Assembly (NCBI RefSeq): GCF_019683595.1
Contig: NZ_JADGHZ010000022.1
Coordinates: 1 to 35,698 of the forward strand
DNA from: Sphaerobacter sp.
Lineage (GTDB): Bacteria; Chloroflexota; Chloroflexia; Thermomicrobiales; Thermomicrobiaceae
Length of the DNA stretch: 35,698 bases
Direction: 5' to 3'
Position 1 is the first letter of the stretch. Each line of letters opens with the position of its first letter. Positions 498 through 25,996 of this stretch are shown here, in pieces. Position numbers and translations under genes: made by a program. The notes under the pieces were generated by a model. It did no database searches. It was not told where the DNA came from and saw only the letters and a list, made by a program, of their open reading frames with translations.

Positions 498-763
498 TAC
501 GTCGTGTTCTTGCCTTCTCGCCCCTCCGGCACGTGCAACACCTCGATAGGTGCCGGTGCGGGCAGCGGCCGGTCCCGGTCGTGGGCGAGGATTCCGCACC
601 ACGCGGCTGGCAGAGACTCCCATAGCAGTCCCGGTCCACGTGATGCGATACAGCCACGAGGCGTGCGCGCGCCGTAGGCCGCACCCCGCCGCTGGTGTGG
701 GTCCAGGGGCTACGTGCCCGAGGCAGGCTGAGGTTTGACCGCGCGAGCAAAGAAGGAGGATTC

Positions 764-1039
764 ATGGCACGACCAACACAACGACGAGGTGGCGCGCAGG
801 CGCCAGCACGCGGGCCGCGCCCGAGCAACCCCGACGCCATCACCGCAGAGGGCCGGGTCGTCGAGGCGCTGCCCAACGCGATGTTCACCGTTGAGCTCGA
901 TAACGGGCATACTGTCCTCGCTCATCTGGCGGGGAAGATGCGCAAGCACTTCATCCGCGTGCTCCCAGGCGACCGCGTGGTCGTCGAGCTATCACCGTAC
1001 GACCTGACCCGGGGTCGCATCACCTACCGCTACCGCTAG
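764..1039 (+). CDS. infA: Translation initiation factor IF-1, N-terminally extended paralogue
   Basis: 91 residues. Residues from about 26 on form the single OB fold of IF-1, which binds the ribosomal A site with IF-2 and IF-3 during initiation. Landmarks are [34 protein letters not shown] and the very conserved [13 protein letters not shown] end. Compared with the usual 72-73 residues it has about 18 extra N-terminal residues that are Arg/Pro/Ala-rich and probably disordered. The ATG at 764 is chosen because AGAAGGAGGA lies just upstream (751-760). A second, normal-length infA is present at 22943-23164, so this is an extra copy outside the ribosomal cluster. The two share the core but differ at many positions. 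Whether it is a specialised or a back-up factor cannot be told from sequence. Confidence 0.93.
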
Positions 1040-1072
1040 CGGCAGTTTCCCCAAATCCCCATCCGGCACGCA

Positions 1073-1111
1073 GGGCGGCATGGTCCGTCACGGTCCGCTC
1101 TGATGCCGCCC
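1073..1111 (+). terminator. Hairpin after the IF-1 paralogue, likely terminator
   Basis: A perfect 9-bp inverted repeat, GGGCGGCAT (1073-1081) and ATGCCGCCC (1103-1111), with a 21-nt loop lies 33 bp past the infA stop and before the pspA promoter. No T-run follows, so it would be a U-less terminator or only an RNA-stabilising structure. Confidence 0.5.
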
Positions 1112-1141
1112 ATACCGCCGCCCAATCGGACTGGCGGTTCG

Positions 1142-1170
1142 TTCCCATGCCGGCAGGATGCGGCTATAAT
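1142..1170 (+). promoter_or_regulatory. Promoter for pspA-pspAA
   Basis: A consensus -10 TATAAT (1165-1170) has TTCCCA (1142-1147) 17 bp upstream as a possible -35. Predicted transcription start is near 1177, leaving a leader of about 53 nt. No obvious sigma-54 (GG-N10-GC) element is visible, so PspF-type control is not indicated. Confidence 0.6.
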
Positions 1171-1229
1171 GACCGCAACGACTCACCGGCGCCCGCAGTG
1201 CGATGCGCACTGAGTAGATTGGACGGACG

Positions 1230-1970
1230 ATGGGTTTGCTATCCCGATTCACCACCCTCATCAAGGTCAAGGTGAACCGGCTGCTCGGTGCGGCCGAGGA
1301 TCCGCGTGAGACGCTCGACTACTCCTACGAGCGCCAGTTGGAGATGCTCCAGCAGGTCAAGCGCGGCGTCGTCGAGGTCGCGACGTCCAAGCGGCGGCTG
1401 GAGCTCCAGAAGGCCAAGCTGCAGGAGAGCGTCAACCGGCTCAACGATCAGGCTCGGCAGGCCGTCGCGGTTGGACGAGATGACCTGGCACGCGCCGCAC
1501 TCGAGCGTCGCGCCATGATCCAGCAGCAGTTGGCGGACCTGGATCAGCAGGCGGCGCAGCTCGACCAGGAGCAGGCGAAGCTGGAGCAGGCTGAGACCCG
1601 GCTCCGGATGAAGATCGAGTCCTTCCGCACGCGCAAGGAAGTGGTCAAGGCCCAGTACTCGGCAGCCGAGGCCCAGGTGCGTATCGGTGAGGCGGTGACC
1701 GGACTCTCCGAGGAGTTGGCCGACGTCGGTTTGGCTCTCGATCGCGCCCAGGAGAAGACCGAGCAGCTCCAGGCTCGCGCCGGAGCCATCGACGAGCTGA
1801 TCGCTTCCGGTGCCTTGGAGGACTTCACCACCTCCGGGCGTGACGCGATCGATCGCGAACTGGCGCAGATTACCGTGCGGGAAAGCGTCGACGCTGAGCT
1901 GGCGGCGCTCAAGGCGGAGCTTGGTGCGCCCGAGCAGCCGAAGACACTCCCAGAGGGAGGTCAGCAATGA
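1230..1970 (+). CDS. pspA: PspA/IM30 (Vipp1) family membrane-stress protein
   Basis: 246 residues, close to the family's usual 220-260. The N-terminal MGLLSRFTTLIKVKVNRLL is an amphipathic helix typical of PspA/IM30. It is followed by the family signature around residues 23-35 (AEDPRETLDYSYE) and by a long Gln/Glu/Ala/Arg-rich coiled coil to about residue 190. PspA/IM30 proteins are ESCRT-III-like; they form oligomers on the inner face of the cytoplasmic membrane and limit proton leakage and membrane damage. The gene overlaps the next one, pspAA, by 4 nt (ATGA at 1967-1970), so the two are translationally coupled. HtpX and PspAB just downstream on the other strand support an envelope-stress role. 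The Shine-Dalgarno before 1230 is weak (GGACGGACG). Confidence 0.93.
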   Translation: MGLLSRFTTLIKVKVNRLLGAAEDPRETLDYSYERQLEMLQQVKRGVVEVATSKRRLELQKAKLQESVNRLNDQARQAVAVGRDDLARAALERRAMIQQQLADLDQQAAQLDQEQAKLEQAETRLRMKIESFRTRKEVVKAQYSAAEAQVRIGEAVTGLSEELADVGLALDRAQEKTEQLQARAGAIDELIASGALEDFTTSGRDAIDRELAQITVRESVDAELAALKAELGAPEQPKTLPEGGQQ

Positions 1971-2245
1971 TCGTGCGGATCGCGACCGAGGGCCAATACC
2001 AGATCGACAGCGCCTACCTCGACAAGTTGAATGCAATCGACAACGACCTCGTGGAGGCGATCGCCGCAGGCGACCAGGAGCGCTTCAAGGCGCTGCTCAA
2101 CGAGCTGCTCGCCCTCGTGCGCGAACACGGCACGCCGGTCCCCCCGGAAGAATTGGTGGAGTCCGAGATCGTCCTGCCGCCTCCCGACACGACGTTCGAA
2201 GAGGCCAGCGAGATGTTCATCGGCGACGGGCTGGTTCCGGGATAG
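1967..2245 (+). CDS. pspAA: PspA-associated protein PspAA
   Basis: 92 residues, small and acidic. It begins MIVRIATEGQYQID and continues with a helical segment (DKLNAIDNDLVEAI, then ERFKALLNELLALVREHG) and a PPEELVESEIVLPPPD strand region. This matches the PspAA family, a short partner usually encoded directly after PspA in actinobacteria, Chloroflexota and archaea. It has no signal peptide or membrane segment, so it is expected in the cytoplasm with PspA. The start overlaps the pspA stop (ATGA). Its biochemical role is not established; the assumption that it modulates PspA rests on conserved pairing. Confidence 0.82.
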   Translation: MIVRIATEGQYQIDSAYLDKLNAIDNDLVEAIAAGDQERFKALLNELLALVREHGTPVPPEELVESEIVLPPPDTTFEEASEMFIGDGLVPG

Positions 2246-2280
2246 ACGCCGACCGCACCACATGCATGACAGGAATACAC

Positions 2281-2307
2281 AAGGGGAGCCGCGTTTGCTG
2301 GCTCCCC
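2281..2307. terminator. Bidirectional hairpin between pspAA and pspAB
   Basis: GGGGAGCC (2283-2290) pairs perfectly with GGCTCCCC (2300-2307) over a 9-nt loop. On the plus strand TCCCTTGTTCTTGG follows, and on the minus strand TTGTGTATTCC follows, both fairly T-rich. It lies between two convergent genes, as expected for a shared terminator. Confidence 0.65.
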
Positions 2308-2321
2308 TCCCTTGTTCTTGG

Positions 2322-2346
2322 TCGGATCAGCGTCACTGTGATCCGA
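2322..2346. terminator. Second hairpin in the convergent pspAA/pspAB gap
   Basis: TCGGATCA (2322-2329) and TGATCCGA (2339-2346) form a perfect 8-bp inverted repeat with a 9-nt loop, 14 bp after the first hairpin. Read leftward from pspAB it precedes the first hairpin, so the two could act in tandem. A protein-binding palindrome is the alternative. Confidence 0.4.
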
Positions 2347-2426
2347 TACGTAGATCGGGGCAGGGCGGAAGCTCACGACCCGCACTCCCCACATGATGGG
2401 CGCCGGTGTTCCGACTGTCGCTCGGC

Positions 2427-2999
2427 TTAGAACGGAATGTCCCAAATGGGGTACCAGCGCTCGAGCTCCGGCTCGACCGGCAGCTCCCGTTCCATCGCGC
2501 TGCCCATCCGCAGCTCGAGCGCGTTGTCGCGGGCGCGGTTTCCACGCGGGACGAAGGGGTAGAAGCGTCCCCGCTTGTAGTTGTAGATCCAGTACACGTG
2601 CTGCCCCTCGGCCGTGGTGAAGCCGAAGACGCTCGCGAGGAGCTGCTCGCCGAACCCGTTGGCGACCAGCTCTTCGCTCACGATGTGGATCGTCGCCACC
2701 AGATCCTCGAACTCGGGATCCTGCAGGATGATCCAGCGGAAGTTGTACTGGTCGGTCTTCGTCTCGAAGCGTGACCCGGTGTCGCGGGTGCTGATCTCGA
2801 GGAGCGCGTTCAAGTCGACGCTCATGCGCTCGAAGTAGTTGGACTCCACCGGCTTGAAGGTGATCCCGGCTCGGTCGATCGCCTTCAGACCGAGCTGCAT
2901 CTCCAGCGTCACCAAGGCCGTCGAGATAGCGAACAGGCGCTCGTTCTTCGCCGGAAGGGGTCGCGCGCGTCCTAGCAGCGCGTCCAGGAACCGCCTCAC
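2427..2999 (-). CDS. pspAB: PspA-associated protein PspAB
   Basis: 190 residues, usual for PspAB. Recognisable stretches are an LALVTLEMQLGLK-like N-terminal helix (ALVTLEMQLGLK), the middle TRFE/DQYNFRWIILQDPEFEDLVATIH region, and the C-terminal YWIYNYKRGRFYPFVP followed by the ELPVEPELERWYPIWDIPF end. No membrane span or catalytic motif is visible, so it should be cytoplasmic. It begins with GTG at 2999 and overlaps the htpX stop (GTGA), so it is co-translated with the membrane protease. The same htpX-pspAB pairing is known in actinobacteria. Its molecular function is unknown; a role linking HtpX and PspA responses is inferred from context only. Confidence 0.8.
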   Translation of the reverse strand: MRRFLDALLGRARPLPAKNERLFAISTALVTLEMQLGLKAIDRAGITFKPVESNYFERMSVDLNALLEISTRDTGSRFETKTDQYNFRWIILQDPEFEDLVATIHIVSEELVANGFGEQLLASVFGFTTAEGQHVYWIYNYKRGRFYPFVPRGNRARDNALELRMGSAMERELPVEPELERWYPIWDIPF

Positions 3000-3925
3000 A
3001 GCCCCTCCATCTCCCGCGACAGCCGCCGCAGCCGCTCCAGCCGGTTCTCCAGCGACGGGTGCGTCGAGAAGAGCTCAGCCAGGGACTGGCCCTTGGCCGC
3101 CGGGATGATGAACAGTGCGTTCATCCCCTGCACCTCGCGCAGGTCACGGTCGGGGATGCGTTCCATGACGCCGCTGATCTTGATGAGCGCCGACATCAAC
3201 TGCGACGGTGCGCCGGTAATGATCGCCGCACCCCGATCCGCGGCGTACTCCCGGTAGCGCGAGAGGGCGCGGATCAGGAAGTAGCTGATCACCCAGACGA
3301 GGATCGACGCGAGGTAGACCAGGGCGATCGCGCCGCCACCGCCATCGCGCCGGTCGCCACGCCGGCCGCCAAACCCGCCGTACATGCCGCCCCAGAACAG
3401 CCAGCGCATCAGCAACTGCGCGACCACGGCGAAGAAGGTGGCCAGCGTCATCACCATGACGTCGCGGTTCCGGATGTGGCTCAACTCGTGCGCCAGCACT
3501 GCTTCGAGCTCGGGCGGGTCAAGCCGCTCCAGCAACCCCTGGGTCACCGCCACGACGGAGTTTTTGGGGTTGCGGCCCGTCGCGAAGGCGTTGGGCACGC
3601 GGGACGGGGAGATGGCAACACGTGGCTTGGGCAGGTCGGCGATCTGCGCGAGGCGATCGACCATCGCGTGCAGTTCCGGCGCCTCTTGCGGGGACACCTC
3701 GCGGGCGCCCATCGTCATGAGCGCAATCTTGTCCGACGCGAAGTACTGAACTCCCAGCAACGCAGCCGCGATGACGGTCATGGTGACGAAGTCGACCCCG
3801 GCATACCACAGCACCGCGATGAAGCCGAGGTAGACGGCCGCCAGCAAGAACATGACGATGAACATGCGGACGGAGAGTTCAGTGTCCCGGCCCCAGCGGG
3901 CCATTCGACCTACAGTGCTTGCCAC
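2996..3925 (-). CDS. htpX: HtpX membrane zinc metalloprotease (M48)
   Basis: 309 residues, slightly longer than E. coli HtpX. Two hydrophobic spans lie near residues 21-40 and 47-62. The catalytic HELSH zinc motif is at 146-150, preceded by the substrate-groove region PNAFATGRNPKN (111-122). Two more hydrophobic segments follow, then the EYAADRGA motif that gives the third zinc ligand. HtpX degrades damaged or misassembled membrane proteins at the cytoplasmic side together with FtsH. The GTG start at 3925 is preferred because GAGG lies 6 nt upstream; an in-frame ATG at 3904 is the alternative. A Gly/Arg-rich GGFGGRRGDRRDGGGG loop between the later membrane spans is unusual. The gene is first in a leftward operon with pspAB. 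Confidence 0.95.
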   Translation of the reverse strand: MASTVGRMARWGRDTELSVRMFIVMFLLAAVYLGFIAVLWYAGVDFVTMTVIAAALLGVQYFASDKIALMTMGAREVSPQEAPELHAMVDRLAQIADLPKPRVAISPSRVPNAFATGRNPKNSVVAVTQGLLERLDPPELEAVLAHELSHIRNRDVMVMTLATFFAVVAQLLMRWLFWGGMYGGFGGRRGDRRDGGGGAIALVYLASILVWVISYFLIRALSRYREYAADRGAAIITGAPSQLMSALIKISGVMERIPDRDLREVQGMNALFIIPAAKGQSLAELFSTHPSLENRLERLRRLSREMEGL

Positions 3926-3968
3926 GTTGTTCCTCGCTTTATGTTAGGCACCGAGCCACCTCACCTGA

Positions 3969-3974
3969 ATTATA
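3969..3974 (-). promoter_or_regulatory. -10 element for htpX-pspAB
   Basis: The minus strand reads TATAAT, a perfect consensus -10. No clear -35 is present 16-18 bp upstream. The leader to the GTG at 3925 would be about 37 nt. It is back to back with the promoter-like box at 4031. Confidence 0.55.
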
Positions 3975-4030
3975 CCCGTAGCGACGAGGCCGACGCGGCG
4001 AGGATGCGCGCGATCATCGCCCGGAGGCGG

Positions 4031-4036
4031 TATACT
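4031..4036 (+). promoter_or_regulatory. -10 element for the ABC transporter cluster
   Basis: TATACT on the plus strand in the 172-bp divergent gap between htpX and the first ABC gene. No good -35 is seen. The predicted leader to 4099 is about 55 nt. Confidence 0.45.
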
Positions 4037-4098
4037 GGTGGTCATCCAGCGCGCTTTCGCCTCGCTGGTCCGAGAACGAAATGTCCGAAGGGTGGGCG

Positions 4099-5058
4099 AT
4101 GGAACCGCACCGCGATGAACCCGTCATCATCTGCCGCGGGCTGCGCAAGGCGTATGGCTCCGTTGTCGCGCTGGATCACCTCGACCTCGAAGTGCCGCCG
4201 GGCGCCATTGGGCTGCTTGGCCCGAACGGCGCCGGCAAGTCCACCCTCATCAAGCTGCTTCTCGGCCTGATCCGTCCGACCGAGGGCGAGGCCAGCGTCC
4301 TGGGGTTCGACACCGCGCGCGACGGGATCCAGGTCCGCCAGCGCACCGGCTATATGCCCGAGTCGGATTGCCTGCCGGGCGATGTGACCGCCGCTGATTT
4401 CGTCGGCCATATGGCGCAGATGTCGGGGCTTCCCGCGCGGGCCGCGCGCCTCCGGGCGGCCGAGGTGCTGTACCACTGCGGCGTCGACGAGGAGCGCTAC
4501 CGCCTCATCCGGGAGTTCTCGACCGGCATGAAGCAGCGGGTCAAGCTGGCACAGGCCATCGTCCACGACCCCGATCTGGTCTTCCTCGATGAGCCGACGA
4601 ACGGCATGGACCCGCAGGGCCGGGAAGAGATGCTGGAGCTCATCAACCGGATCCACCGCGAGATCGGGATCACCGTGCTGCTCAGCTCCCACTTGCTCGA
4701 TGATGTCGAGCGAGTCTGCGACTATGTCTTGTTGGTTGCTCAGGGTCGGCTGGTGCAACACGGCCCGGTCCGTGAGCTGATCGCGGGGGCTGGCGACATC
4801 CTGGTAGAGGTCGACGGCGACGCGGCTCGCTTCCGCGAGGCGCTCGTCGCGCGCGGCGCGACCGTAACGGCGAGCGACGGCATGCTCGCCGTGAAGCACA
4901 CCGATGATCTGGTCTTCGACGTGATCCGGGATACGGCTGCCGACCTCGATGTTGCCCTCCGCGGGCTGCGGATCCAATCGCGCTCGCTTGAGGACGTCTA
5001 CGTTCAGCAGGTACTGGCGGTCAACGGAGGGAGCGACGGTGTCGAGCGTGCCGGGTGA
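4099..5058 (+). CDS. ABC transporter ATP-binding protein (ABC-2 type exporter)
   Basis: 319 residues. Walker A GPNGAGKST is at about 41-49, a variant signature STGMKQ at about 141-146, Walker B LVFLDEP at about 160-166, and the H-loop in LLSSHLLDDVE. After the nucleotide-binding domain comes an accessory region of about 90 residues (ILVEVDGDAARFREALVARG onward), common in DrrA/CcmA/NatA-like exporter ATPases. It energises the membrane subunit encoded just downstream, whose gene starts 20 nt inside this one. The ATG at 4099 is chosen because GAAGGGTGGG lies close upstream; an in-frame ATG at 4081 would add six residues. The substrate is unknown: drugs, lipids, polysaccharides and bacteriocin-like peptides are all handled by this family. 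Confidence 0.9.
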   Translation: MEPHRDEPVIICRGLRKAYGSVVALDHLDLEVPPGAIGLLGPNGAGKSTLIKLLLGLIRPTEGEASVLGFDTARDGIQVRQRTGYMPESDCLPGDVTAADFVGHMAQMSGLPARAARLRAAEVLYHCGVDEERYRLIREFSTGMKQRVKLAQAIVHDPDLVFLDEPTNGMDPQGREEMLELINRIHREIGITVLLSSHLLDDVERVCDYVLLVAQGRLVQHGPVRELIAGAGDILVEVDGDAARFREALVARGATVTASDGMLAVKHTDDLVFDVIRDTAADLDVALRGLRIQSRSLEDVYVQQVLAVNGGSDGVERAG

Positions 5059-19798: not shown

Positions 19799-20152
19799 TT
19801 AGGCGACGAACTCGATCACCGCCATCGGCGCGCCATCGCCGCGCCGTGGCCCGAGCTTATAGATGCGCGTGTAGCCGCCCGCCTGCCCCTCGAAGCGCGG
19901 TCCAAGCACCTCGAACAGCTTGGCCACAGCGCGCTCGTCACCCAGGCGCGCCATCAGCAGCCGCCGCCGGTGCTCCGTATCCTCGCGCGCCATGGTGACG
20001 TACTTCTCGACGATCGGGCGGACCGTCTTGGCCTTCGCCTCGGTCGTCGTCATGCGCTCATGCAGGATGAGTGAGATCGCCAGGTTGCGGAAGAGCGCCT
20101 TCCGCTCCTTGGTCGAACGACCGAACTTCCGTCCGGCGACCCGATGCCTCAT
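19799..20152 (-). CDS. rplQ: 50S ribosomal protein L17
   Basis: 117 residues. It starts MRHRVAGRKFGRSTKERKAL and has FRNLAISLILHERMTTTEAKAKTVRP, all diagnostic for L17; the C-terminal PMAVIEFV ends the protein. L17 lies near the peptide exit tunnel. The ATG overlaps the rpoA stop (ATGA), so it is translationally coupled to the RNA polymerase alpha subunit, as is usual for this pair. Confidence 0.97.
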   Translation of the reverse strand: MRHRVAGRKFGRSTKERKALFRNLAISLILHERMTTTEAKAKTVRPIVEKYVTMAREDTEHRRRLLMARLGDERAVAKLFEVLGPRFEGQAGGYTRIYKLGPRRGDGAPMAVIEFVA

Positions 20153-21168
20153 TCGTTGGTCTCCTCCACCTGACTGGAGAGCGCAGCCTCGGCGTCCTCA
20201 GCCGCCTCTCCCTCGGACGCGGCCTCCTTCTCCTTCGCCGCATCCATCGCGAGCGTGTAGCCGTGCTCAGCCAGCCGCTCCCGGAGCTCCTGCAGCGAGC
20301 GAGGACCAAAGTTGCGGATCGACAGCAACTGCTCCTGCGGAAGCGAAAGCACCTGTCCGACGCGCTCGATCTGCCGGCTCCGCAGCGCGTTGAGCACGCG
20401 CGGCGACAGCCCGAGCTCCGCCAGCGGCCGGTTGTCGACGATACTCGGCGTCGTGTCCTCTTCCTCTTCCGGCTCGCTCGGCTCGCGGTTGAAGTCCGCG
20501 ATCAGGCGGGCATGATCGACCAGGATCTGGGCCGCCTCGCTCAGCGCGTCAGCCGGTTCGATCGTCCCATCGGTGATGATCTCAATGATGAGCCGGTCGT
20601 AGTCGGTCATCTGGCCGACGCGGGTGTGCTCGACCACGTAGTTGACCTTCTCGATCGGCGTGAAGATCGCGTCGACCGGGATCTCACCGATCGTGTAGAT
20701 CTCCTGCATCTCGGCCGGCTGGTAACCGCGGCCACGCGCGATGACCAGATCCATCTCCAGCCGCGCGTCGTCGTTGTCCAGCGTCGCGATGATGTGCTCG
20801 GGGTTGACCACCTCGACGTCGCCGGGCCAGTCGATATCGCCGGCGCGGACGACTCCCTCACCCTGGGCATACAGGCTGGCACGGCCCTCGCGGAACGACT
20901 CGGTCAGCGCCTTCAGTCGCACCCGCTTGAGATTGAGCACGATCTCCGTCACATCCTCGCGCACGCCTTCGATCGTCGAGAACTCGTGCCAGACATCGGC
21001 GATACGCACCCGCACGATGGCCGTGCCCGGGAGTGACCGGAGCAGGATGCGCCGGAGGGCGTTCCCGATGGTGATGCCATAGCCGGGCTCCAACGGCTCG
21101 ATCTCGAAGCGGCCGTAGTTGACCCCGGCGTGGGTCTGTTGAACTCTCGGTCGGGCTATCTCCAACAA
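20149..21168 (-). CDS. rpoA: DNA-directed RNA polymerase subunit alpha
   Basis: 339 residues. The N-terminal domain (to about 230) has the dimer and assembly signature GYGITIGNALRRILLRSLPG. After a flexible Glu-rich linker (SEPEEEEDTTP), the C-terminal domain has LSPRVLNALRSRQIERVGQVLSL and IRNFGPRSLQELRERL, the helix-hairpin-helix that contacts UP elements and activators. A tail of about 30 acidic/Ala-rich residues (KEKEAASEGEAAEDAEAA) follows; it is longer than in E. coli. It starts with TTG at 21168 (a second TTG follows), with AGAGGAGG 9 nt upstream. The next gene, rplQ, overlaps by 4 nt. Confidence 0.97.
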   Translation of the reverse strand: MLEIARPRVQQTHAGVNYGRFEIEPLEPGYGITIGNALRRILLRSLPGTAIVRVRIADVWHEFSTIEGVREDVTEIVLNLKRVRLKALTESFREGRASLYAQGEGVVRAGDIDWPGDVEVVNPEHIIATLDNDDARLEMDLVIARGRGYQPAEMQEIYTIGEIPVDAIFTPIEKVNYVVEHTRVGQMTDYDRLIIEIITDGTIEPADALSEAAQILVDHARLIADFNREPSEPEEEEDTTPSIVDNRPLAELGLSPRVLNALRSRQIERVGQVLSLPQEQLLSIRNFGPRSLQELRERLAEHGYTLAMDAAKEKEAASEGEAAEDAEAALSSQVEETNE

Positions 21169-21202
21169 GCGAATCAGCCTCCTCTGGGCATCCCCAGTGC
21201 GG

Positions 21203-21233
21203 GCGGGGCCGTCGGGCCAGGCAGCGGCCCCGC
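21203..21233 (-). other. Perfect hairpin between rpsD and rpoA
   Basis: GCGGGGCCG (21203-21211) and CGGCCCCGC (21225-21233) form a 9-bp all-G/C stem (loop 13 nt) in the 82-bp rpsD-rpoA gap. No T-run follows on the minus strand. It could be a processing, stability or attenuation site. Confidence 0.45.
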
Positions 21234-21250
21234 TGCGCCAGGTTCAATGG

Positions 21251-21895
21251 TTATCGGCTGTAGAACTCGACGACCAACTGCTCGTTGAACGGCGGTCGTT
21301 CGATCTGGTCCGGCGTCGGTGCGTTGATGATCCGGCCGCTCAACGACGCCATGTCGCGCGAGATCCACTCGGGCACCTGCTTCGAGCCCGCCGTCTCGGC
21401 CACAATCTTGAAGTACTCGCGCTCGCGGCTCTGCGGCCGCACCGCGACCACATCGCCCGGCTTGACGATGAACGACGGGATGTTCGTCTTCCGCCCGTTG
21501 ACCGTAAAGTGGCCGTGGCGGACCAACTGCCGCGCCTGGGCGCGCGAGTCGGCGAATCCGAGCCGGTAGACGACGTTGTCCAGGCGCATCTCCAGGATCT
21601 GGAGCAGGTTCTCGCCCGTGACACCACCGCGGCGCTCGGCTTCCTCGAAGTGACGCCGGAACTGCCGCTCCATGATGCCGTACATGCGGCGGATCTTCTG
21701 CTTCTCGCGGAGCTGCAGACCGTACTCCGACGGGCGCCGCGTGCGCTTCTGACCGTGCTGCCCCGGCGGGAAGTTCTTGGCCGGCTGCCGCTGAACGATC
21801 GGGCACTTCGGGCCGAGACAGCGCTCGCCCTTCAGAAAGAGCTTCATGCCCTCGCGGCGGCAGATCCGGCACACGGGACCGGTGTACCTTGCCAT
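21251..21895 (-). CDS. rpsD: 30S ribosomal protein S4 (zinc-binding form)
   Basis: 214 residues. The N-terminus has Cys9, Cys12, Cys26 and Cys31 (CRIC ... CLGPKC), the four-Cys zinc site of the C-plus form. The S4 RNA-binding domain holds [25 protein letters not shown] and [22 protein letters not shown]4 nucleates assembly of the small-subunit body and in other bacteria represses its own operon. It lies 38 bp after rpsK; a strong hairpin separates it from rpoA. Confidence 0.97.
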
Positions 21896-21933
21896 TCGTC
21901 CTCCTCAGCCCAGTAAGCCGTACTGGACTCGGC

Positions 21934-22344
21934 CTAGACGCGCCGCCGCTTCGGCGGGCGGCAACCGTTGTGCGGAACCGGCGTAATGTCAGAGATCGAC
22001 AGCACCTGCATGCCGGCGGCTTGCAGCGACCGGATGGCCATCTCCCGGCCGGCGCCGGGCCCCTTGATGAACACGTCGACCTGCCGCATGCCGTGGTCCA
22101 TCGCCTTCCGCGCCGCGTTTTCGGCGGCCACCTGGGCGGCGTAGGGCGTGCTCTTCCGCGATCCCTTGAAGCCGGAGGAACCCGCGCTCGCCCATCCGAC
22201 CACGTTGCCGGCCTGGTCGGTCAGGGTGACGATCGTGTTGTTGAAGGTGGACTGAATATACGCCCGCCCCCGGGGGATATTCTTCTTATCCCTCCGGCGC
22301 GGACGCGCCGACCGCCCTCGACCCGTTCGCCGTCGATCCGCCAT
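21934..22344 (-). CDS. rpsK: 30S ribosomal protein S11
   Basis: 136 residues. The core contains [21 protein letters not shown], the [16 protein letters not shown] block and the [21 protein letters not shown] stretch; the end [17 protein letters not shown] is diagnostic. A basic Arg-rich N-terminus of about 20 residues precedes the core. S11 forms part of the platform near the mRNA exit and P site. It follows rpsM by 58 bp. Confidence 0.97.
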
Positions 22345-22402
22345 TGAGTTGCTGTCCTCCCTCTGCTGGTTCCCTGTTGCCTAGCGGCTATGCGCGCGCA
22401 GC

Positions 22403-22777
22403 CTAACGCCCGCGCTTGCGAACACCGATGGCCCGCTTCGGACCCTTGCGGGTGCGCGCGTTGGTCCGGGTGCGCTGCCCGCGCACCGGGAGCCCGCGGC
22501 GATGCCGCAGCCCGCGGTAGCAGCCGATGTCCATCAGCCGCTTGATGTTCATGTTGATCTCGCGCCGCAGGTCCCCCTCGACCACCATCTCCTTCTCGAT
22601 GATGTCGCGGAGCCGGCCGACCTCGTCGTCCGTCAGATCCCGCACGCGGGTATCCGGCGACACACCCGTGCGCTCCAGCAGCTTCTTGCTGGTCGACAGC
22701 CCGATGCCGTAGATATAGGTCAGGGCGATCTCGACCCGCTTTTCCCGGGGGAGGTCTACACCCGCGATTCGAGCCAT
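22403..22777 (-). CDS. rpsM: 30S ribosomal protein S13
   Basis: 124 residues. [26 protein letters not shown] is the typical start; the helix-turn-helix region and [19 protein letters not shown] are intact, and the tail [13 protein letters not shown]... reaches P-site tRNA. S13 connects the head to the large subunit through bridges B1a/b. It is 15 bp after rpmJ. Confidence 0.97.
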
Positions 22778-22792
22778 CAGCGTCCGTCCTCC

Positions 22793-22906
22793 CTACCCCT
22801 GCCGCTGCTTGTGCTTCGGGTTCGTGCAGATGACCCGCACCACCCCGCGGCGCCTGATGATCCGACAGTTGTCACACCGGCGCTTCACCGATGCCGTTAC
22901 CTTCAT
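22793..22906 (-). CDS. rpmJ: 50S ribosomal protein L36 (zinc-binding form)
   Basis: 37 residues, read directly from the minus strand: start ATG at 22906, stop TAG at 22793-22795. It begins [20 protein letters not shown] and ends in [12 protein letters not shown]. The zinc ligands Cys11, Cys14, Cys27 and His32 are all present, so it is the zinc-containing form. L36 binds helices of 23S rRNA at the base of the L7/L12 stalk region. It is in its usual place between infA and rpsM. GGAGAGAC lies upstream of the start. Confidence 0.95.
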
Positions 22907-22927
22907 GTCTCTCCACCTCTCACACGC

Positions 22928-22942
22928 TGGGCGCCACGCCCA
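22928..22942 (-). other. Short hairpin after infA
   Basis: TGGGCG (22928-22933) and CGCCCA (22937-22942) give a 6-bp stem with a 3-nt loop directly after the infA stop codon. No T-run follows, so read-through into rpmJ is expected. Confidence 0.3.
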
Positions 22943-23164
22943 TTACGTGCGCAGTCGATACGTGATGCGGCCCCGCGTCAGATCGTACGGCGACAACTCG
23001 ACGCGGACGCGGTCCCCAGGTAGGATGCGGATGAAGTTCAACCGCAGCTTGCCCGAGATGTGGGCTAATACCTCGTGCCCGCTGTCCAACTCCACACGAA
23101 ACATGGCGTTCGGCAGGGGCTCTGTGACGCGACCTTCGACCTCGATGACATCCTTCTTTGCCAC
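22943..23164 (-). CDS. infA: Translation initiation factor IF-1
   Basis: 73 residues, the standard size. From the GTG at 23164 the protein reads [21 protein letters not shown], then [22 protein letters not shown], ending [18 protein letters not shown]-1 occupies the A site of the small subunit during initiation. The GTG is preferred because GAGGTG is 7 nt upstream; an in-frame GTG at 23188 would add eight residues that match nothing in the family. It is in the canonical infA-rpmJ-rpsM-rpsK-rpsD-rpoA order. A paralogue is at 764-1039. Confidence 0.96.
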
Positions 23165-23228
23165 CGAACCACACCTCAACCCGCGCACGCGAAAACCGGC
23201 GGACCGCGTGTGTGCGCCACAAAGCGGG

Positions 23229-23259
23229 ATTATACCACACTTTCCGCCGGTGCGGTCAA
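23229..23259 (-). promoter_or_regulatory. Promoter for infA-rpmJ-rpsM-rpsK-rpsD-rpoA-rplQ-truA-rplM-rpsI
   Basis: On the minus strand TTGACC (23259-23254), a 19-bp spacer, then TGG-TATAAT (hexamer 23234-23229). The extended -10 is perfect. It lies at the 3' end of map, whose TAA stop (23232-23230) is inside the hexamer. Start of transcription would be near 23222, giving a leader of about 58 nt. Confidence 0.7.
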
Positions 23260-23994
23260 CAGCACCGGCTCATCCTCCGTCACGAGCACCGTGTGCTCGT
23301 AGTGAGCGGCTAGCGCCCCGTCCGCCGTCACCACCGTCCAGCCGTCCGGCAGCACCCGGGTCCGAGCCGACCCCGGGGTGAGCATCGGCTCGATCGCGAG
23401 CGTCATCCCTGGCCTCAGCCGCAACCCGGTCCCCGGCCGCCCGTAGTTGAACACGGTCGGTTCCTCGTGCATGGCGCGCCCGACTCCGTGCCCGGTGTAC
23501 TCGCGGACAACTGCGAACCCGTGCGCCGCGGCGTATGAATCGATCGCCGCACCGATATCGCCCAACCGCTTCCCGGCGACCGCGGCGGCCGCACCGGCAC
23601 GGAAAGCGCCTTCGGTCGCCGCGATCAGCCGCCGGGCCTCGTCACTGACCTGACCGACCGGCAACGTGATCGCAGCGTCGCCGTGGTAGCCATCGATGAT
23701 CACCCCGACGTCGATCGAGATGATGTCTCCCTCGACCAGAACCCGGTCTCCTGGAATGCCGTGGACGATCTCCTCGTTGACCGAGGCGCAGATGCTGGCC
23801 GGGTAGCCGTGGTAACCAAGGAAGGACGGTTTCCCACCGCGCGCGGTGATGAGCTCATAGGCCAGCCGGTCGAGTTCCCGCGTGGTGATCCCGGGCGCTA
23901 CCCGCTCGCGCATCAGGTCGAGCACCTCGGCCACGACGAGTCCCGCTGCGCGCATCAAACCGATCTCGCGGGCCGACTTCAGCGCGATTGCCAT
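23230..23994 (-). CDS. map: Methionine aminopeptidase, type I
   Basis: 254 residues. The five metal ligands are present: Asp95 and Asp106 ([17 protein letters not shown]), His169 ([13 protein letters not shown]), Glu202 ([10 protein letters not shown]) and Glu233 (YEHTVLV). It removes the initiator methionine from new proteins. No N-terminal zinc finger, so type Ia. The adk stop and map start share one base (TGATG). Its stop codon lies in the infA promoter. Confidence 0.97.
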
Positions 23995-24683
23995 CAGCTC
24001 GCCTCGACCCGCGACCGCAGCGCGGCCAGAATGGCCTCAGTGACCGCCTCGATCGGCTGGTTGCCGTCGATATTGACCAGCAGGCCGGCCTTCGCGTAGT
24101 GCTGCAGCACCGGCTCCGTCTGCTCGTAGTAGATCGACAGGCGACGCTCAACCGCCTCCGGCGTGTCGTCGCTCCGCTGGTACAACTCGCCGCCGCAGAC
24201 ATCGCAAACGCCCGGCTGCTTCGGCGGGTTGAACACCTTATGGTAGGTCGCCCCGCAGTTACGGCAGACCAGGCGCCCGCTCAGCCGCTCGATCAGCACC
24301 TCACGCGGCACCGCGATGTGGATCACCGCCGCGATCGAGTCGCCCCGGGCCGCCAGCGCCGCGTCCAGCGCCTCGGCCTGGGCCTGGTTGCGCGGGAAGC
24401 CGTCGATCAGCGCGCCGTGCGCCTCCGGTCGCTCGGTTGCCAGTTCGTCAAGCCGTTCGGTCAGCATCCGCAGGGTGAGGTCATCGGGAACGAGAGCGCC
24501 GCGGTCGTAGTAGCTGCGAATCTCCCGCGCCAGCTCCGTATCGCTGGCCATGACCTGCCGAAACAGGTCGCCGGTGGCGACGTGGACCAGTCCGAGCCGC
24601 GGCGCGACGATGGCCGCTTGTGTCCCTTTACCCGCACCCTGCGGGCCCATGATGACGACGTGTCGTGCGCCGTCTTTACCCAT
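23994..24683 (-). CDS. adk: Adenylate kinase with zinc-binding LID
   Basis: 229 residues. The P-loop is GPQGAGKG (13-20), followed by the AMP-binding helices (GDLFRQVMASDTELA) and LIDGFPRN. The LID holds four Cys, Cys140, Cys143, Cys160 and Cys163 (CRNC ... CDVC), the structural zinc type common in thermophiles and Gram-positives. It catalyses ATP + AMP to 2 ADP. It is 14 bp after secY and overlaps map by one base. The sequence starts MGKDGARHVVIMGPQGAGKG, slightly longer than usual. Confidence 0.97.
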   Translation of the reverse strand: MGKDGARHVVIMGPQGAGKGTQAAIVAPRLGLVHVATGDLFRQVMASDTELAREIRSYYDRGALVPDDLTLRMLTERLDELATERPEAHGALIDGFPRNQAQAEALDAALAARGDSIAAVIHIAVPREVLIERLSGRLVCRNCGATYHKVFNPPKQPGVCDVCGGELYQRSDDTPEAVERRLSIYYEQTEPVLQHYAKAGLLVNIDGNQPIEAVTEAILAALRSRVEAS

Positions 24684-24697
24684 GACGCGCCCTCTCC

Positions 24698-25996
24698 TCA
24701 GCGGAGGAAGCCTTCGTAGTTCCGCATCATCAACTGCGCCTCAAGCTGGCGCATGGTGTCGATGGCGACACCCACCACGATCAGCAGCGACGTCGCGCCC
24801 AGGAAGAGCGTCGTGACCCCGGTGATCTGAGCCGCGATGTACGGGAGCACCGCCACCACACCGAGCGAGAGCGCGCCGACGAGGGTGATGCGCATCAGCA
24901 CCCGCGTCAGATAGGCGTCCGTGTTCTTCCCCGGCCGGACGCCTGGGATGAAGGCGCCCTGCTTCTGGAGGTTCTCCGCGATGTTCTGCTGCTGGAACAG
25001 CACCATCGTGTAGAAGTAGGTGAACGCCACCACCATGGCGAAGTAGATCACCTGATAGAGCAGCCCGTTCGGGTTGAAGGCGGTGGCCACGGAGGTCGCC
25101 AGGTTCCGCACCCAATCCCGGTCGGAGGTCTGCAGGAAGTTGGCGATCATCCCCGGGAAAACCATGATGCTGATGGCGAAGATCAGGGGGATCATCCCGG
25201 CGGAGTTGACCTTGAGCGGGATGTAGGTGCTACCGCCGCCATACACCCGCCCGCGGCGGATGCGCTTGGCATGCTGCACCGGGATGCGGCGCACCCCCTC
25301 GTTCAGGAGCACGATGCCGACGATCGTGATGAGGCCGATCAGCACGAAGCCGATGGTGCCCATCACGTTCTGCGTCGCCGTCCCACCCCCGATGAGATTC
25401 GCCACCGAGCGGGGCAGGCTGGCCACGATGCCGCCGAAGATGATGATGGAGACGCCGTTCCCGATCCCGTTCTCCGTGATCAACTCACCCAGCCAGACCA
25501 GGAAGACGGTGCCCGCCGTCATGACGAGCAGGACGGAGATGCTGCGAAGCGCGGTGTCGGCATCGAACAGCCCGAAGTCCCTCAACACCCCGGCGTTGGC
25601 CATCAACACCGCCTGACCGTAGCCTTGCAGCAGCGCCAGCGGCACGGTCAGCCAGTGGGTGTACTGGTTGATCCGGTTCCGCCCCTGCTGTCCCTCCCGC
25701 GACAGCTCCTCCAGGCGCGGGATGATCGGCGTCAGGAGCTGCATGATGATCGACGCCGTGATGTACGGGTAGACGCCCAACGCCAGGATCGAGAAGTTCT
25801 TCAGCGTGCTCCCGGAGAACAGGTTCAGCATGCCCAGGAGCTGGTTCTGCTCCAGGAGCTGCTGCAACGCCTGCCGGTCCACGCCGGGCACGGGAATCGT
25901 CGCGATGAAGCGGAACAGGACCAGGATCCCGACGGTGAAGAGGATCTTGCGTCGAAGGTCGGGGATCCTGAAGGCGTTGATGGCTGCTTCGAGCAT
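24698..25996 (-). CDS. secY: Preprotein translocase subunit SecY
   Basis: 432 residues, the usual size, with ten hydrophobic spans. Family landmarks: [19 protein letters not shown] at the start, TIPVPGVD, the [28 protein letters not shown] plug region (GALPYITASI-type), and [20 protein letters not shown] near the end. SecY is the protein-conducting channel in the cytoplasmic membrane. Its ATG shares one base with the L15 stop (TAATG), so L15 and SecY are translationally coupled. Confidence 0.97.

Follow-up and report, generated by a model that had tools for sequence, protein, structure and literature searches.

It is known that PspA builds ESCRT-III-like coats on stressed membranes and that HtpX is a membrane protease facing the cytosol. 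In the stretch of Sphaerobacter sp. DNA analyzed here (contig NZ_JADGHZ010000022.1, 35,698 nucleotides (nt), hereinafter referred to as the window), a gene of each kind is accompanied by a small partner gene, pspAA and pspAB, respectively, and the comparison of genomes reported below suggests that PspAB works mainly with HtpX. The four components, in the same pairings, correspond to a system disclosed in a 2024 survey of phage shock protein (PSP) systems, where PspA-PspAA occurs with a membrane metallopeptidase and PspAB (PMC11237479; example AAZ55047.1); hence, the gene combination is already published. In the portion of that survey available, neither the orientation of the genes nor an HtpX motif is described and the name HtpX has no occurrences; the SHOCT-like gene that occasionally belongs to the published system was not found beside the window locus. 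As far as searched, the link with one HtpX clade, the D-x-R motif, and the layout counts are new. A literature search, judged by titles that mostly concerned enterobacteria ("pspab" presumably matching pspABC), disclosed no recognizable paper on PspAB together with HtpX.

The other described systems share fewer features with this locus. PspA is common to the window module and to the proteobacterial pspF-pspABC system, but no PspB or PspC was identified here, nor an adjacent PspF gene or a sigma54-like site. The mycobacterial clgR-pspA-pspM-pspN system also has PspA in common, whereas no ClgR, PspM, or PspN gene was identified at the window locus (the genome scan included no ClgR-specific model). 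A PspA-family protein is shared with the Bacillus liaIHGFSR system; however, the match to the LiaH model is weak (20.7 bits; cut-off, 380), LiaI/LiaF and LiaRS are not among the scanned neighbors, and a LiaF-like gene and two PspC genes are located on other contigs of this genome. As for ordinary HtpX, which we take to be M48B, the zinc-site residues are the same, but the window HtpX falls into a separate clade (support 100/100) and carries both an N-terminal D-x2-L-x2-R-M extension and the motif D261-x-R263.

The four genes of the system are all found within one neighborhood of the window:

1230–1970, forward strand: pspA, the bacterial ESCRT-III-like membrane coat protein PspA/IM30 (PF04012, 79.9 bits against a cut-off of 33.9, residues 2–231)
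1967–2245, forward strand: pspAA, 92 amino acids (PF22743, 123 bits against a cut-off of 27, full length)
2427–2999, reverse strand: pspAB, 190 amino acids (PF22742, 260.9 bits against a cut-off of 27, profile positions 2–189 of 189)
2996–3925, reverse strand: htpX, M48 membrane metalloprotease (PF01435, 135.4 bits against a cut-off of 20.3; NCBIfam NF002669, 465.7 bits against a cut-off of 341)

The initial annotation, which was made from the sequence alone, had described pspA-pspAA and htpX-pspAB as convergent pairs, and this arrangement is confirmed, all four genes scoring above the curated cut-offs. In both pairs the start of the second gene lies inside the stop of the first, with an overlap of 4 nt. 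According to the profile search, PspA is the sole PF04012 match in the genome (3.89 Mb), and its relatives in the PDB are PspA/Vipp1 assemblies. The HtpX zinc-site residues H146-E147-x-x-H150 and E226 are present, and they are conserved in PspAB-linked and ordinary HtpX alike; therefore, the protease should be active. The closest named locus is that of Sphaerobacter sp. Bu17, whose PspAB is 88% identical. According to the window gene scan, infA and ABC transporter genes lie next to the module.

The association between HtpX and PspAB was analyzed in a sample of 400 Chloroflexota genomes (the phylum sample). NF002669 scored above 341 bits in 69 of them (lowest score 351.6, the next copy among the matches listed reaching 258.6), and in 69/69 the HtpX so recognized is directly followed by PspAB on the same strand; the same adjacency was found at 22/23 named loci. 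Three PspAB genomes have no HtpX over the cut-off: G156, in which PspAB is located at a contig end, G183, whose single contig bears pieces of HtpX at its two ends, and G188, whose PspAB is weak and whose region was left out of the counts. In a tree of 57 HtpX proteins, 37 PspAB-linked sequences are split from 20 ordinary Chloroflexota sequences by a branch with 100/100 support. The PspAB-linked side spans Chloroflexota, Bacillota, Thermodesulfobacteriota, and archaea, and the split holds within genomes carrying both kinds of HtpX (G151 and G208).

PspAA and PspAB were found in 74 and 72 genomes of the phylum sample, respectively, with 65 harboring both, 7 PspAB alone, and 9 PspAA alone (Fisher p 2e-56, without a correction for kinship). 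Neighborhood conservation, which the initial annotation had proposed to compare with chance, is thus far above it. In 39 of the 65 genomes with both genes, belonging to 11 families, they are close and tail to tail, and in 2 (family f32) close on one strand; in one genome they share a contig at a distance of 509 kb, and in 23 they lie on separate contigs, partly owing to contig breaks. Among the 101 genomes of the class sample, PspAB occurs in 17 and PspAA in 18, and in 17/17 PspAB genomes PspAA adjoins tail to tail. Among ten genomes checked via named loci, nine contain PspAA, which in seven of the nine is absent from the PspAB locus examined.

This strong co-occurrence would also be expected if PspAB, true to its name, worked with PspA and lay beside htpX merely for joint expression, HtpX being an independent protease; to judge from the available part of the survey, PspAB was indeed named after its PspA neighborhoods (PMC11237479). 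Such an explanation appears unlikely, since in 31 of the 72 Chloroflexota PspAB genomes PspAA is not nearby (23 with PspAA on another contig, in some cases because of breaks, 1 with PspAA far away, and 7 without it), while the adjacency to HtpX is still complete in the 69 over-cut-off genomes, and since, as described below, the presence of D-x-R in HtpX goes with that of PspAB.

PspAA, for its part, follows PspA. Out of 35 PspAA regions unlinked to PspAB, 23 have PspAA beside PspA and 10 have it fused to PspA, while the remaining 2 show neither arrangement, one of them lying at a contig end. The 4-nt overlap occurs in 36/40 pspA-pspAA pairs and in 29/84 htpX-pspAB pairs, counts in which start codons were set by a simple rule and some loci come from one genome. 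A tandem duplicate of pspAA is present in G148 (L102, 1586–2227), and G176 harbors a lone second PspAA with no PspA nearby (L180, 2898–3164).

A different picture emerges from the archaeal phylum of Methanoperedens (275 genomes), where high-scoring HtpX was found in 183 genomes and PspAB in 108. All the 108 PspAB genomes have a strong HtpX match, 102 being over the cut-off among the rows listed and the other six having a best E of at most 1.7e-122. The 29 sampled copies that are PspAB-less or not adjacent to PspAB (28 from PspAB-less genomes and a paralogue of G692) cluster together within the clade (Shimodaira–Hasegawa-like approximate likelihood ratio test (SH-aLRT) 82–83), which is consistent with one loss of PspAB. 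Exclusivity of HtpX for PspAB was rejected as a general rule, being true in the Chloroflexota sample and false in archaea.

The PspAB-linked and PspAB-less members of the clade were compared column by column. The 37 PspAB-linked HtpX share 76 columns with a conservation of 90% or more, of which five (G238, R256, D261, L262, and R263) drop to 30% or less in 20 PspAB-less clade members, and four of the five lie within the following segment:

3137–3160, reverse strand: HtpX codons 256–263 (RIPDRDLR), holding the PspAB-correlated D261-x-R263, recognized by sequence comparison

The prediction that DLR accompanies PspAB was noted before 20 new archaeal HtpX were obtained, in which DLR was found in 6/6 PspAB-adjacent vs. 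0/8 PspAB-less sequences. The two paralogues of G692 differ in the same sense, the copy beside PspAB having RDLR and the other MKKR. Where PspAB is present but unlinked (4 HtpX copies from 3 genomes), three copies have DLR and one DMR. The remaining counts come from sequences collected earlier and hence were not blind: DLR in 8/8 Actinobacterial HtpX; DLR in 36/37 training rows (one DFR), with D-x-R in 37/37; and DLR in 51/59 other linked loci, with D-x-R in 59/59. As these 59 include five repeated sequences and a further one identical to a training row, 53 are distinct non-training sequences (DLR 45/53, D-x-R 53/53), and 30 of them are less than 90% identical to every training row (DLR in 22, D-x-R in 30). 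The motif is absent from ordinary Chloroflexota HtpX (0/20). Overall, D-x-R is present in 109/109 distinct HtpX from genomes with PspAB and in 0/49 counted as without it, i.e., 20 ordinary ones, 28 from PspAB-less archaea, and one non-adjacent paralogue; in a tree with 105 rows, the motif matches the presence of the partner in 105/105.

The N-terminal extension D-x2-L-x2-R-M was also considered as a docking site for PspAB. It is found in 58/59 other linked loci and 8/8 Actinobacterial sequences vs. 0/20 ordinary HtpX; since PspAB-less archaeal HtpX retain it (12/20 exactly, with D, L, and R in 20/20), the extension marks the clade rather than the partner, and this candidate was rejected.

Concerning the partner proteins themselves, the AlphaFold model of PspAB (22 sequences; predicted local distance difference test (pLDDT) 86, predicted template modeling score (pTM) 0.83) has a predicted alpha+beta ferredoxin-like core. 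The alignment of PspAB retrieved nothing from PDB sequences but matches with E above 0.6, and a CesT/YbjN-like fold, which had been guessed for PspAB, is absent among the matches listed in the fold search. The PspAA model (pLDDT 84) gave no match of note among the matches listed. For HtpX, the sequence search retrieved a single solved relative, an HtpX fragment of 107 residues (3cqb).

On the whole, these data make it probable that the locus is a phage-shock-type envelope maintenance module with two coupled arms, i.e., a membrane coat of PspA and PspAA and the protease HtpX, assisted by PspAB around D261-x-R263. As regards physical contact, the direction of control, and substrates, we infer the following scheme. 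In the first arm, PspA would coat and reshape damaged membrane, and PspAA, as a dedicated partner of PspA, might tune the assembly of the coat or its recruitment. In the second, HtpX would cut damaged or unassembled membrane proteins, and PspAB would be its cytosolic partner, acting on the catalytic domain near D261-x-R263 either as an adaptor delivering substrates or as an activity gate. The two arms would be inherited together because a damaged membrane has to be patched and, at the same time, cleared of damaged protein. To our knowledge, there is no established HtpX adaptor, and we know of no function assigned to PspAA or PspAB. A more demanding form of this proposal has about equal chances of being right and wrong: that one HtpX clade has in PspAB a dedicated cytosolic cofactor, which docks on the protease or gates it via D261-x-R263; that the protease thus regulated is coupled to the ESCRT-III-like coat in a two-arm repair common to archaea and bacteria; and that the loss of PspAB leads to decay of the motif, the rest of the protease being kept.

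Several observations weigh against this proposal. Clade HtpX occurs without PspAB in 75/275 archaeal genomes (183 minus 108), and therefore HtpX does not need PspAB; moreover, PspAB is directly adjacent to HtpX in 80/102 archaeal genomes with listed HtpX rows. In Chloroflexota the two arms are far apart or on separate contigs in 24/65 genomes, partly owing to contig breaks. Strict DLR, as predicted, holds in 99/109 sequences and fails in ten (DFR, DIR, or DAR in 8/53 distinct other linked sequences, DFR in 1/37 training rows, and DMR in 1/4 unlinked copies), D-x-R being a relaxation adopted after these variants had been seen. The tree needs two changes, i.e., two independent contrasts (2/2 agree), with which a sign test cannot reach significance, so that the motif correlation is exact yet statistically thin. 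Finally, the best match of the PspAB fold, a designed ferredoxin-like protein, has a Z of 7.7 (87 residues, root-mean-square deviation 2.5), an uninformative level. If PspAB is the partner of HtpX, a membrane protease and a membrane-remodeling coat would belong to a single system that can be tested through a prediction on two residues, in thermophiles, haloarchaea, and Actinobacteria accessible as laboratory strains, and the current name PspAB would seem to point at the wrong partner.

The relative orientation of the arms was then considered. Tail-to-tail pairs account for 39/41 close PspAA-PspAB pairs of Chloroflexota, in 11 families, and for the named loci of Methanothrix-type archaea and Limnochordaceae; among tail-to-tail pairs from all sources, the stops are no more than 40 nt apart in 26/51, and in 8 of these 26 pairs, four of them archaeal, they overlap (L027, on the same contig as L051, was dropped from this count). 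Regulation by convergent overlapping transcripts is known in general (PMC7154746), and the layout might itself be a control device, overlapping 3' ends giving double-stranded RNA or a polymerase collision that balances the arms. This is quite doubtful, because all four genes lie on one strand in the Methanoperedens locus L041, and one-strand arrangements also occur in family f32 and in Actinobacterial plasmids, where 6/8 regions show pspA-pspAA-htpX-pspAB as one operon-like row (in the other two, htpX-pspAB is present but PspA is missing from the region). These eight come from 16 plasmid records; L209/L216 and L212/L214 are near-copies, and L210 and L211 are unannotated and rest on profile search. 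The arms are, moreover, apart in many genomes, and common descent may explain the orientation, given that tail to tail vs. one strand requires two changes on the HtpX tree (linked rows); tail to tail vs. everything else requires 11. As the four genes form one operon in the Actinobacterial plasmids, a particular layout is not essential.

Descent alone, the four genes being neighbors with no joint function, is very hard to credit. Passive inheritance is possible for tail-to-tail neighbors, but the same four genes occur both tail to tail and as one operon, two layouts that are incompatible, which argues for function rather than chance, and the arms are jointly present even when unlinked.

In the window, the stops of the two arms are 181 nt apart, which also speaks against control by overlapping ends, as does the first of the two hairpins annotated there:

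2282–2308, forward strand: terminator-like hairpin after pspAA, passing the terminator scan
2322–2346, no strand: second inverted repeat, TCGGATCA...TGATCCGA, with no T tail and not seen in the sister genomes

Of these two hairpins, across which the arms had been said to meet, the first is supported, being recovered by the scan, with similar hairpins in the sisters, and the second is not. Since one terminator was found vs. a mean of 1.5 in shuffled sequences, the hairpin at 2282–2308 is not above chance on its own; similar hairpins are visible by eye in both sister genomes, and other genera have different hairpins or none. The region between the arms is not conserved, the stop-to-stop distance ranging from overlap to 2.8 kb across relatives, and Rfam at gathering scores gave no match over the window.

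The surroundings of the module differ among organisms. In family f54 (L129, L132, L134, L136, L141, and relatives), htpX-pspAB has a PspA-PspAA fusion on one side, tail to tail, and on the opposite side a second PspA gene, which is head to head with htpX. In family f1 (L052, 5422–6276, and relatives), a gene for a ClpP-like SDH-type serine protease is divergent from pspA in several genera. The Streptomyces plasmid copies of the four-gene row (L212 and L214) lie among heavy-metal transport or mercury-reductase genes.

The following features upstream of the two arms might be involved in their expression:

1142–1170, forward strand: pspA promoter-like site TTCCCA-17-TATAAT, the lone sigma-70-like match within 600–4300 (mean of 0.3 in shuffled sequences)
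1196–1212, forward strand: inverted repeat CAGTGCG-ATG-CGCACTG between the promoter and the pspA start, candidate hairpin or operator
3969–3974, reverse strand: htpX -10 box TATAAT with a poor -35, recognized in the sequence and recurring in 16/16 family genomes

Exact TATAAT or TATACT boxes are present 5' of pspA in 16/16 and 5' of htpX in 16/16 genomes of the family, the window counted, vs. expected counts of 0.58 and 0.45, respectively, in first-order Markov sequences. At the sequence level, this recurrence supports the presence of a promoter for each arm, in agreement with the initial annotation. The -35 boxes are weak in both arms, that of htpX being the weakest.

The absence of a PspF-like regulator from the neighborhood, also proposed there, is borne out: PF00158 has no match on the contig of the window, no sigma54-like site (TGGCACG-N4-TTGCW, up to three mismatches) was found 5' of either arm on the correct strand, and the scanned neighbors of the locus include no identifiable transcription factor. 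Control by sigma54 was accordingly rejected at both promoters; over the whole window, sigma54-like matches number 45 vs. 51.5 expected. The one strong sigma54 activator of the genome is of the NtrC type, with a receiver domain, and is located on a different contig. The further claim that control is of a non-classical kind did not find support, as both arms have ordinary-looking -10 boxes, the genome carries an unlinked PspC-LiaF pair, and the lack of an identified local regulator does not establish it. Housekeeping-like promoters with a weak -35 are compatible with an activator acting in trans, and "not classical" is thus plausible, though unproven.

Activator-dependent promoters often pair a good -10 with a weak -35, as seen in both arms, and a dedicated stress regulator encoded elsewhere might bind both promoters, for instance at the dyad 1196–1212, whose exact sequence is unique in this genome. 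We regard this as somewhat unlikely. An exact copy of the dyad is lacking from the sister G073, the third representative of the genus, and 5' of htpX in the window the dyad recurs neither exactly nor with one mismatch; as a shared operator, it was rejected on account of its single exact site and its absence, as an exact copy, from one sister. Furthermore, ten recurrent groups of flanking genes were scanned in relatives (a minority of the flanking genes, which vary between families), of which eight were identified, none being transcription factors, and two remained unmatched. In three Actinobacterial regions, MerR, ArsR, or metal-sensing regulators lie one or more genes away. The dyad is a perfect 7-bp inverted repeat, and the other sister, G029, has one copy with the center inverted; the whole 17-mer is flipped there in nearly identical surroundings, as from a loop inversion.

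Elsewhere in the genome, unlinked to the module, a PspC gene is followed by the LiaF-like gene (L152, 2684–3768), with no two-component genes among the few neighbors scanned, and the second PspC match lies on another contig (L153, 1452–1775). In the window itself, the C and G runs at positions 1–69, at the contig end, are probably a sequencing or assembly artefact. The reverse-strand genes at 20152–25996 (RNA polymerase alpha, a map-like M24 peptidase, and SecY) resemble a ribosomal-protein region and are unrelated to the module.

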